From a virus, in the IMG/VR virus record IMGVR_UViG_3300036770_001512, positions 1 through 22,342 of that record: 22,342 nt of DNA. One strand, 5' to 3'. Positions within the stretch are counted from its first letter, which is position 1. The number at the start of each line of letters is the position of its first letter. Of the stretch, positions 7,678-20,303 are shown piece after piece. Below the pieces are notes generated by a model. The model saw only the letters and a list, made by a program, of their open reading frames with translations. It did not search any database and was not told the DNA's origin. The position numbers were made by a program, and so were the translations under genes.

Positions 7678-10113
7678 TTAAAAGGTTCCACCGTCTGTGA
7701 TCTGATTTCGCGTCTTTCCTTCAAGATATTTTGCATTTACCTCAAGAAGGAGCGATCCGTCCAAAGCGGGCAGGGCACCCGTAGCACCCGCCCCAAAGAC
7801 CGAACTTGTGCCCAGTACGATGATGTTTCCTGCTTTGATTCCTGTCTTTATGGAAACATGTCCCGTAGAGCCGAGTTGGAAATAGTTGTCATCGAAAGAC
7901 GCAACACCCGTCGAACCCGTGGTGGCAAGAGGGGGTGGGCAGCACTTCGCTGCGGTTCCTTGAGTCGTACCATCACCAAACTGTATGAAACTATCGGGGT
8001 AGAGGGTTCCGAGTTTGAAAGACCCTGGTGTTTGAAGTGAAAGATCTGTGAGGTAGTTGAACTTGAGGGCATTGTCTGCACCAAGATCAGATCCATCTCC
8101 CTCAAAAGTTGCTCCCGTGTCAGCCCATGCGATAGCACCCGCAGTTCCCTTGACTGTGGCATAAGGCTTGCTGTACAAACGAAGCGTCTTGTTGTCGGCT
8201 CCTGTCACAGACAGGGTGAGGTTTCCTGCGACTGTTAGTCCAACCGCACCCGTAATTCCGTTTACCGACGAAACATAGTCGCTCGGTATTACACCTGTCG
8301 CGCCCGTTGCCCCCCGCTCGGAAGTCAGCGTCACCGCCACGAACTTCAGGAACTCTACCGTTATGCTCTTCGCGGCAGTCTTGTTCTGTACGATGAAGAA
8401 CAGGCGGTCGTTTGTGTTCAGATCAAGTACAGTTTGAATCGCACCCGCAACTGGCTTGGATTGCGATGGGCAGTCGATGTACACCTCTGATTCGGAGATG
8501 CGGTCTGCATCCGCACTCAATCCGCTCAAGATGTTCTTGTTATGACCGACATAGAAGCCGCATGTATTGTTGCTGACTTCACTCCAAAAGTTGAATGTGG
8601 CGACAACATGGAAACGACCACCCGAACCCAAATACTTCAATGAGTTCGTGGTCGGATCCTTGATGAAGTTATACAAGGCTCCTGCGGTCATCGAACCTTC
8701 AACAACCGCTCTTCCGTTGACTACTGATATGGGTGTTGGCGTTGCATTGTTCTTGAGGTACATGACCCCAACATCATTGTTTCCCGCAACTCCCGCGCCA
8801 GGGGCACCCGTAGCACCCGTTGGGCCTATGCTTCCCTGTCCACCAACACTACTGATCGTGATTGCATTGCTGTCGGGATCCGTTGTCAGGGCAATGTTAG
8901 TTCCTGCGACAAAGGTCAATGTTTCCTTGTCGTATTGAACAGCAGTCAGCCCCGACTGTCCCGATACAGAGATGAACTTGAAGGCTTCGCCAAGACCGCC
9001 GCCGCCATCATATAGTACAGGTGCGGTGCCTATAGCACTCTTGATCTTGGACAGATCGATAGAGAGATGTTTCTTGGCTTTGTCTAGTTTCAGGGGATAC
9101 TGAACCGACAGAAGACCTGAATCTCCCGTAGCACCTTTCTCGCCGCGTTCCCCTTGCTCTCCCTTGTCTCCCTTCTCTCCTCTCTCACCGCGTTCGCCCT
9201 GTGCGCCTACAAGCCCACGCTCTCCTGCCACTCCTTGAACGCCTTCAGGGCCTCTCTCGCCGCGTTCCCCTTGCTCTCCCTTGTCTCCTTTTTCCCCTTG
9301 CTCTCCCTTCTCGCCTCTTTCTCCTCTTTCGCCTTTCTCTCCTCTGTCGCCGCGATCTCCCTTATCTCCTTGGGCACCCTGAAGTCCTTGCGGGCCGATA
9401 TCTCCCCGCTCTCCCTTCTCGCCCTTTTCCCCTTGAAGACCTTGAAGTCCTCGTTCGCCTTGGGGGCCCTGTGATCCCTCTGCTCCCGCTTCCCCTTTTT
9501 CACCTTTCTCGCCTTGGAGACCTTGTTCACCTCTTTCGCCACGCTCTCCTCTTTCTCCACGAATACCAGGCGGCCCTTGAAGTCCACGCTCACCGCGTTC
9601 GCCTCTGTCACCGCGCTCACCCTTCTCTCCTTTTTCGCCCTTCTCCCCTGTGTCGCCTTTAGCCCCTTTTGGGCCTCTGACGCCAGGGATACCGTCCTCG
9701 CCACGAATGACTTGTGGCTGTGGACGATTGCGCTTCGCTTCAGCAAGAACCTCTCTTGCCTTGGGCGGTCGAACCTCGGGTGTAGGTTGTGGCTTTGCTT
9801 CCTCTACTTGAGGCTTGGGAGCATTCTCAAGCAGAATGAAAGATTCGTCTAGGATGTGCTTGCCACCTTTGAGAGTGACAGCATTTCCGCTTCCATCGAA
9901 GAAGAACGCTTCTCCGATTCCCTTGTAACGATATACCTTGCCACCCTCGCAAGCCTTCGCGGGGGCATATGTGAATACCGATCCTGCCTCATAGTCCATG
10001 AGGGGACGGACTAGCATCACCTGTGTGCCTACTGGAATGCCCGAACTCAGTCGAACGAATTCGACGGGGTCTTCTCCGTTGGCATTGATGTAATCATTAA
10101 ATCTGTTCGCCAT
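7678..10113 (-). CDS. Collagen-like tail-fibre protein (811 aa)
   Basis: Probable trimeric fibre. Residues 1-100 form a globular N-terminal domain, followed by a Pro/Lys-rich linker to about 137. Residues 138-332 are an uninterrupted collagen-like run of about 65 Gly-X-Y triplets, rich in GERGEKGDK. Residue 333 onward is non-collagenous, with a short second GPTGATGAPGAG run. A segment containing FHVVATFNFW and RLFFIVQNKT looks like a C1q/TNF-type beta sandwich (my inference from pattern). The C-terminal part has SFIQFGDGTTQGTAA, STGVASFDD and a final ITDGGTF, linking it to the fibre genes downstream. A CTAAATA promoter is at 10143-10149. The start region has no clear Shine-Dalgarno sequence and its A lies in an inverted repeat. 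The tandem GXY DNA makes long open frames on the other strand, which I regard as shadows. Confidence 0.88.
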   Translation of the reverse strand: MANRFNDYINANGEDPVEFVRLSSGIPVGTQVMLVRPLMDYEAGSVFTYAPAKACEGGKVYRYKGIGEAFFFDGSGNAVTLKGGKHILDESFILLENAPKPQVEEAKPQPTPEVRPPKAREVLAEAKRNRPQPQVIRGEDGIPGVRGPKGAKGDTGEKGEKGEKGERGDRGERGERGLQGPPGIRGERGERGERGEQGLQGEKGEKGEAGAEGSQGPQGERGLQGLQGEKGEKGERGDIGPQGLQGAQGDKGDRGDRGEKGERGERGEKGEQGEKGDKGEQGERGERGPEGVQGVAGERGLVGAQGERGERGEKGDKGEQGERGEKGATGDSGLLSVQYPLKLDKAKKHLSIDLSKIKSAIGTAPVLYDGGGGLGEAFKFISVSGQSGLTAVQYDKETLTFVAGTNIALTTDPDSNAITISSVGGQGSIGPTGATGAPGAGVAGNNDVGVMYLKNNATPTPISVVNGRAVVEGSMTAGALYNFIKDPTTNSLKYLGSGGRFHVVATFNFWSEVSNNTCGFYVGHNKNILSGLSADADRISESEVYIDCPSQSKPVAGAIQTVLDLNTNDRLFFIVQNKTAAKSITVEFLKFVAVTLTSERGATGATGVIPSDYVSSVNGITGAVGLTVAGNLTLSVTGADNKTLRLYSKPYATVKGTAGAIAWADTGATFEGDGSDLGADNALKFNYLTDLSLQTPGSFKLGTLYPDSFIQFGDGTTQGTAAKCCPPPLATTGSTGVASFDDNYFQLGSTGHVSIKTGIKAGNIIVLGTSSVFGAGATGALPALDGSLLLEVNAKYLEGKTRNQITDGGTF
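9118..9702 (-). repeat. Collagen-like Gly-X-Y triplet array
   Basis: About 65 consecutive triplets with glycine at every third residue (138-332) and no break. X is mainly E, D or L and Y mainly R, K or Q, giving alternating charged GER/GEK/GDK triplets instead of proline-rich ones. This suits trimer stabilisation by salt bridges where no prolyl hydroxylation is available. Confidence 0.95.
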
Positions 10114-10140
10114 CGTAAACCCAAGGGGGGCAGTTTACGA
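10113..10140 (-). promoter_or_regulatory. Inverted repeat covering the start of the collagen-like fibre gene
   Basis: Perfect 8-bp arms, TCGTAAAC (10133-10140) and GTTTACGA (10113-10120) in RNA sense, around a 12-base C-rich loop. The last base of the second arm is the A of the ATG. The late promoter box ends at 10143, so late transcripts should begin inside or just before the first arm. Confidence 0.6.
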
Positions 10141-10142
10141 GG

Positions 10143-10149
10143 TATTTAG
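10143..10149 (-). promoter_or_regulatory. T4-like late promoter (CTAAATA) for the collagen-like fibre gene
   Basis: CTAAATACC on the minus strand lies in the short gap after the ThyX stop codon (10157), 29 bases upstream of the ATG at 10113. Same box as at 1875, 11101 and 20210. Confidence 0.6.
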
Positions 10150-10156
10150 GGATGCC

Positions 10157-10837
10157 TCATTTGGCTATTAGTGCCTTCCACGATACTGGGTACAAAGGTT
10201 CAATAAGAGTGGAAATGGCATTTGCATATTCCCGAACTTCCCATTGGGCATGTGGATCCGACCGCAAGGCGTAAACTCTCGCATACGCAGCAAGCGATCC
10301 CGTCCACCACCATTCGGTATAGGTTCCTTGGGGGAGAATGAAACGAGCCTGTTCAGGCGCAACCCCCGACCCGATCAGGAAGTTGTAGTAGCCATGGGCT
10401 TTTGCTACTGATTCCTCATACATCTGCGTCAGGTGTTCGGTCAGGGCATCATGGTCGATGAAGTCCTCGCTCCCCTGCTTGGCACCGTTCGTCGGCTTCG
10501 ATCTCCATTGAGGAATGTAGAACTCAGGCTCATCGGTCACATATCGACGCGACACCTCGTTCTCGACAAACCCCTGCTTGTGCTTGAAGAGTTGTGTTCG
10601 AATTGAGATGGGTGCCTTGATCCGCAGCGTGATCTGCGGATGGGCGAACGGAGTCCAATGGTTGTGCTTCGCCAAGTAGTTGATCAACTTCTCGTCACGG
10701 TCAGCGAACTCTTCGCTTTCCTTGTTGAAGGAGACACGCGCTGCGTTGACAACCGTAAGGTCGTTTCCCATGTGGGAGACATATTGAACAAATCCCACCC
10801 CGTCCAAGACGGGGATCGATTCACGAACTGCTTCCAT
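10157..10837 (-). CDS. thyX: FAD-dependent thymidylate synthase ThyX
   Basis: Makes dTMP from dUMP with methylenetetrahydrofolate and FAD/NADPH, supplying thymidine for phage DNA synthesis. At 226 residues the length fits the family. The ThyX signature region is FKHKQGF...NEVSRRY (residues 84-99): the usual RHR is replaced by KHK/HKQ, as in the phage and cyanophage branch as I recall it, while N-E-x-S-x-R-Y is kept. The C-terminal part has R165 and LPQGTYTEWWWTG, then HAQWEVREYA (196-205), the canonical QWE-R motif. The ATG at 10837 follows the stop of the small acidic gene by three bases, with GAGGAA overlapping that stop, so translation is probably coupled. It would be transcribed from the late promoter at 11101-11107, which is unusual for a nucleotide-metabolism enzyme, or by read-through from primase. 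Confidence 0.95.
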   Translation of the reverse strand: MEAVRESIPVLDGVGFVQYVSHMGNDLTVVNAARVSFNKESEEFADRDEKLINYLAKHNHWTPFAHPQITLRIKAPISIRTQLFKHKQGFVENEVSRRYVTDEPEFYIPQWRSKPTNGAKQGSEDFIDHDALTEHLTQMYEESVAKAHGYYNFLIGSGVAPEQARFILPQGTYTEWWWTGSLAAYARVYALRSDPHAQWEVREYANAISTLIEPLYPVSWKALIAK

Positions 10838-20228: not shown

Positions 20229-20303
20229 TAGGCGGGGCGGGAGTCGAACCCGCATGAGGGCGATTATAAGTCACCACCTTTTACCACTATCAGGCACCCG
20301 CCC
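20229..20303 (-). tRNA. tRNA-Ile (anticodon UAU)
   Basis: A full cloverleaf can be folded by eye: acceptor GGGCGGG/CCCGCCT (first pair G-U) with discriminator A; D arm CCTG...AAGG (13-22 mismatched); anticodon stem GGTGA/TCGCC with loop CTTATAA, giving anticodon UAU that reads AUA; T arm GCGGG-TTCGACT-CCCGC. The 3' CCA is not encoded (next bases are TTC). The D loop, ATAGTGGTAA, keeps GG but has T where a purine is usual at 15. It fills nearly the whole gap between the helicase stop (20309) and the late promoter. Confidence 0.9.

Follow-up and report, generated by a model that had tools for sequence, protein, structure and literature searches.

A short module ahead of a tail fibre gene fuses a T4-type late promoter to a hairpin that ends in the A of the start codon. 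The module is conserved among close relatives, is present twice in one virus and, at the same junction in distant lineages, is replaced by other stems in which pairing is preserved. We hold, with moderate confidence, that late-start hairpin control of the T4 gene e type is its best explanation. In the scheme that we infer, RNA running in from the upstream thyX gene would carry both arms, so that the hairpin would cover the leader together with the first base (A) of the start codon; once closed, it would lower fibre translation from this read-through RNA. RNA begun at the late box would start inside the 5' arm, lack the outer stem and be translated. Fibre synthesis would thus be coupled to late transcription, even though the gene lies directly behind a gene of nucleotide metabolism. 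If this is right, fibre synthesis in uncultured T4-like viruses is subject to a control already described for T4 lysozyme and homing endonucleases, and compensatory change has retained it there.

Gene neighbourhood and anatomy of the module

The window, that is, the whole stretch of 22,342 nucleotides that was analysed, encodes a gp61-like primase and a gp41-like helicase upstream of thyX and was thus recognized as a piece of a T4-like virus; the closest isolate homologues of the helicase are found in Kyanoviridae-type phages (~61% identity). A tRNA gene (20229-20303, minus strand) is located between the helicase gene and a DUF6267 gene. All genes around the fibre start are encoded on the minus strand. 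The N-terminus of the fibre protein had no match among phage isolates; the position of its start is supported by an MxxRFN N-terminus kept from residue 1 among relatives. The features of the region are as follows.

10157-10837, minus strand: thyX, flavin-dependent thymidylate synthase (Pfam Thy1, phrog_85)
10143-10149, minus strand: late-promoter box CTAAATA, T4-type, -12 to -6 (direct reading; same in all relatives)
10136-10138, minus strand: predicted late transcription start, 10137 by the T4 rule (from T4 box spacing and leaderless ATG clustering)
10133-10140, minus strand: 5' arm TCGTAAAC, its first 3-4 nt predicted to be missing from late mRNA (invariant in window-type relatives)
10128-10131, minus strand: inner stem, 5' side, GCCC (folding)
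10123-10127, minus strand: hairpin loop CCCTT, variable in letters and length (5-6 nt) in relatives (alignment)
10119-10122, minus strand: inner stem, 3' side, GGGU, the only Shine-Dalgarno-like letters, weak (sequence and folding)
10113-10120, minus strand: 3' arm GTTTACGA, its last base being the A of the start codon (sequence and alignment)
10111-10113, minus strand: fibre start codon ATG (conserved N-terminus)
7678-10113, minus strand: collagen-like tail fibre gene, 811 aa (PHROG tail fibre families and Pfam Collagen)

On the minus strand, CCTAAATA (10150-10143) is followed by CC, TCGTAAAC (10140-10133), TGCCCCCCTTGG (10132-10121), GTTTACGA (10120-10113) and TGG, so that the stretch reads directly as CCTAAATACC-TCGTAAAC-TGCCCCCCTTGG-GTTTACGA-TGG. 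The inverted repeat reported in the initial annotation was confirmed by this reading: perfect 8-mer arms, separated by 12 nt and including the A of the ATG, lie between the CTAAATA box and the fibre start codon, with the 5' arm two bases from the box and 16 nt from the thyX stop codon. The element folds into UCGUAA/UUACGA, an ACU bulge and GCCC/GGGU with a 5-nt loop; within the full element the A of the AUG is paired, with a pairing probability of at least 0.9 in most contexts. The reported lack of a visible Shine-Dalgarno sequence was also borne out, as the fibre leader has none of the GGAG, GAGG or AGGA type and only the weak GGGU, 5 nt upstream of the ATG. An intrinsic terminator was rejected, since the hairpin has no T-run, its stem is followed by ATGGCG and a terminator scan was negative here.

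The late promoter box proposed in the same annotation is real. TAAATA occurs seven times in the window, always on the coding (minus) strand and mostly just 5' of open reading frames, and CTAAATA is the late box of phage Aeh1 (PMC1524935). Late boxes of T4 span -13 to -6 (PMC1524935, PMC2988020), a spacing that places the predicted +1 near 10137, inside the first arm, as had been suggested; a start there would leave 3-4 nt of the 5' arm out of the late RNA. No early or middle promoter was established upstream of thyX, which weighs against the proposed scheme.

In isolation, the 36-nt element folded better than 199 of 200 shuffles (z -2.8), and the folding of a 111-nt context was unremarkable against shuffles (z 0.04). 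Short inverted repeats of this size class number 38 in the window, so the weight rests on position and conservation rather than on the mere existence of the repeat. That the repeat arose by chance in ordinary intergenic sequence, a reading to which the frequency of such repeats and the unexceptional long-context folding lend some credit, is nevertheless very improbable: when the spacer only was shuffled, an 8-bp repeat beginning at most 4 nt from the box arose in 0.024% of the cases (p 0.00024), the module is invariant among relatives and independent stems occupy the same place elsewhere (see below). The inverted repeat before the fibre gene is real and not a product of chance.

Close relatives and a second copy

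An exact pattern search of IMG/VR recovered 9 further sites, spread over 8 other viral contigs, that carry the whole module; bacterial and archaeal genomes gave no match in the module search. In a ninth contig (L007), the module has one difference, A to G in the 3' arm, which keeps the pair (U-A to U.G). The initial annotation had made its proposal depend on conservation of the arms in relatives, and in the alignment of the window type both arms and the box are indeed invariant, as is the inner CCC/GGG stem, whereas loop letters and length vary and the flanks diverge. The identity of the fibre N-terminus among these relatives is as low as 58%. Twelve further matches to the 16-mer TAAATACCTCGTAAAC come without hairpin or ATG, in the number that chance predicts, and were not considered copies of the module; a match in L097 (GTAAACTNCCC...GGGTTTAC) belongs to an unrelated repeat-rich region.

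Across lineages of the window type it is the letters themselves, and not just their pairing, that do not vary, with 19 unchanged columns from the box through the 5' arm, and one virus has a near-identical copy ahead of a further gene. Both observations could point to a sequence-specific binding site, at which a phage protein bound to the hairpin RNA (cf. T4 RegA, gp43 and gp32) or to a DNA palindrome by the late box would repress or activate the fibre gene. However, distant relatives retain the hairpin without the letters, the variable loop length and the G.U pairs argue against a DNA operator, and no candidate binder was found; we regard such a site as possible but rather unlikely.

The second copy is carried by contig G001 (147,569 bases), in which the module is present twice, and precedes another structural gene (L093:3172, 168 aa). 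The two copies are identical at 37 of 39 bases and have unrelated flanks; in copy 2, a G to A change in the inner stem (G.U to A-U) keeps the pair with U. Since the loop TTCYAT is common to both copies and confined to that lineage, we infer that they arose by duplication and not by convergence. In contig G002, the counterpart of the second module-carrying gene lacks the module and is preceded instead by a strong GC-rich hairpin, AGCAGCCTCCTCCTTGTGGGGAGGCTG (L137:2930-2960).

A recombination cassette, conserved mainly through copying and homologous exchange between fibre genes, would account for the likeness of the G001 copies amid unrelated flanks, for their shared loop and for the absence of the module from the G002 gene. 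The PeSL cassettes of T4-type phages (PMC4503421) similarly combine a promoter and a stem-loop in a small transferable unit, but join an early promoter to a terminator, whereas the fibre module is late and its hairpin lacks a T-run. Yet a single duplication was seen, the 16-mer elsewhere is attributable to chance, and copying alone leaves the different stems of distant lineages unexplained, all of which makes a cassette decidedly unlikely. Under late-start control, the duplicated copy suggests that such control can pass from one structural gene to another as a single unit.

Different stems at distant thyX-fibre junctions

Distant thyX-fibre junctions were fetched through protein homology, irrespective of hairpins. 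At the same junction, L017 has the stem CCTGTA/TACAGG (shuffle p 0.009), L152 and L157 have CTCTCG/CGAGAG with the Shine-Dalgarno sequence GAGAG within the 3' arm (p 0.0013 and 0.009, respectively), L024 and L026 have TACTCG/CGAGTA (p 0.24 for L026), and L068 retains TCGTA/TACGA with CCAC/GTGG as the inner stem (p 0.047). The combined p is ~1e-4 for four lineages with one junction each. Furthermore, in the L012-14 group the late box is located within the hairpin loop (AACCTGT/ACAGGTT, p 0.005 for L012; AACTTGT/ACAAGT, p 0.016 for L013; L014 has a wobble-containing version only). Such a hairpin is absent from the L085 thyX-fibre junction.

Window-type sequences served to build a covariance model, which matched L068 (20.4 bits), L017 (16.2) and L024 (14.6) at this junction, although a few matches of similar score lay at other places. 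In the model-fitted alignment, which leans towards the structure, 90% of the cells were paired, compared to at most 50% when it was slid, and 2 pairs showed double-sided changes, both from L017. MAFFT applied to the distant stems produced no alignment and no consensus structure. We read the different stem letters at the same place as the compensatory change that the initial annotation had proposed to seek in relatives; judging from conservation and pair-preserving replacement, the hairpin at this junction is maintained.

In every lineage with a stem, the predicted transcription start leaves 4 nt or more of the 5' arm upstream of it. This arrangement fits what the T4 e mechanism needs and would be unneeded by a plain binding site or a stabilising hairpin. 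The 5' arm extends into the end of thyX in L068 and in the L012-14 group, and ribosomes translating thyX would therefore open the hairpin there; these two lineages weigh against the mechanism, as do the weak calculated effect in the window and the persistent inner stem (see below). With four different stems at one junction, the relatives are natural variants for testing how the start point affects translation.

Two other arrangements were observed downstream of thyX. The stop codon TAA of thyX often forms part of the TAAATA late box of the next gene (L012, L018, L034, L050, L078 and other thyX loci), such that stop and promoter are fused. At the L087 junction, a leaderless-type start has ACTTGCG 5' of the ATG and CGCAAGT just within the gene; this hairpin holds the ATG in its loop, and late RNA could not form it.

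Start-codon accessibility, known systems and predicted leaderless genes

In short folds, the energy changed from the read-through to the late form from -11.9 to -4.7 kcal/mol in the window, from -8.6 to -1.5 in L017, from -8.7 to 0 in L152 and from -17.5 to -1.9 in L012. The outer stem is lost from the late form. Thus, the earlier claim of a hairpin formed only in read-through mRNA stands for the outer stem but not for the inner GCCC/GGGU hairpin, which persists in the late RNA of the window. The proposed folding of both transcript forms likewise separated them by the outer stem, but the cost of opening the window start region was nearly equal with 35-50 nt of coding sequence included (4.3-5.2 kcal/mol in read-through versus 4.1-4.7 in late RNA), as this longer context lets the start codon pair with coding sequence; with 25 nt, the costs were 3.3-4.7 versus ~2. 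The corresponding read-through and late values were 8.6 versus 1.1 for L093 copy 2, 12.8 versus 1.9-4.6 for L017 and 5.3-6.6 versus 2.4-3.8 for the T4 e control, clear differences in the predicted direction; the difference in L015 varied with context. Shuffling of the upstream sequence gave significant results for L015, L093 and L017; the window was not beyond shuffles. Leader pairing with the sequence before the start is also frequent at other late genes (mean 3.5 expected pairs), and the fibre junctions, which are related sequences, exceed them only moderately (p 0.008).

A leader without a good Shine-Dalgarno sequence and an inner CCC/GGG stem that is both invariant and persistent in late RNA might also suggest a hairpin that helps translation, with the 5' structure of late mRNA stabilising the message or placing the start codon in lieu of the missing site, or acting as a split ribosome binding site. 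The outer stem, however, requires letters that late RNA should not have, and we consider a helping role unlikely. T4 genes 25 and 38, with split ribosome binding sites, share a hairpin directly before the start codon (PMC3014915) but differ from the fibre gene, and this reading was rejected, in that the alignment has no conserved purine-rich Shine-Dalgarno site upstream of the hairpin, L015 and L093 being without one.

Hairpin control by late transcript start is known for T4 e, soc and I-TevI (PMC3014915, PMC2988022), so the precedent named in the initial annotation is correct. In gene e (as well as soc, 49 and I-TevI), as in the fibre module, the late box adjoins or lies within a hairpin over the initiation region (PMC3014915, PMC2988022), and the T4 e sequence and its fold place the start of late e transcripts within or past the 5' arm. 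For the fibre module, T4 box spacing predicts a start within or downstream of this arm in all lineages examined; moreover, the A of the AUG is paired in the fold of the full element and the structure is conserved in relatives. In contrast to e, the controlled gene would be a tail fibre gene behind thyX, the start codon is the stem edge with no good Shine-Dalgarno sequence, the inner stem survives in late RNA and one virus has a second copy. Late-promoter-proximal hairpins also sequester the initiation region in the leaders of Aeh1 mobE and of I-TevII and I-TevIII (PMC2988022), and the CTAAATA boxes are shared with Aeh1 (PMC1524935), but those are homing endonuclease genes, whereas no endonuclease is involved in the fibre module.

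In a set of 194 late-boxed genes from the fetched loci, ATGs cluster 5-8 nt past the box (24, 12, 11 and 5 genes), as would be expected if the box placed transcription initiation on the A of a leaderless ATG. About one third of the boxed genes in G001 and G002 look leaderless, and leaderless late mRNAs are predicted. More tentatively, and with considerable doubt, the transcript start point may impose late timing on translation in this T4-like branch, through many leaderless late genes and a transferable fibre late-box hairpin that would make a start codon without a Shine-Dalgarno sequence usable only in late-promoter RNA.

An anti-Shine-Dalgarno sequence after late boxes, taken as a general feature, had no effect across the 83 further late genes (z at best -1.3). 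In some late genes, CTCC-like letters directly past the box pair with the gene's own Shine-Dalgarno sequence (e.g., TACTTTCC/GGAGAGTA); the cases include L106 (G001:18977) and L121 (G002, spacer 25 and 20), with no general trend. In G001 and G002, the contigs of L093 and L095, the box lies 4-8 nt before the ATG in 27 of the 87 late-boxed open reading frames; in stretches sampled from T4, DSL-LC02 and Melnitz, the figure was 4 of 81 (Fisher p 8e-6). Examples of this short spacing are found at G002:68196, 45492, 57394 and 127304, and the genes that display it include those for a baseplate wedge subunit, the tail tube cap and a DNA helicase.
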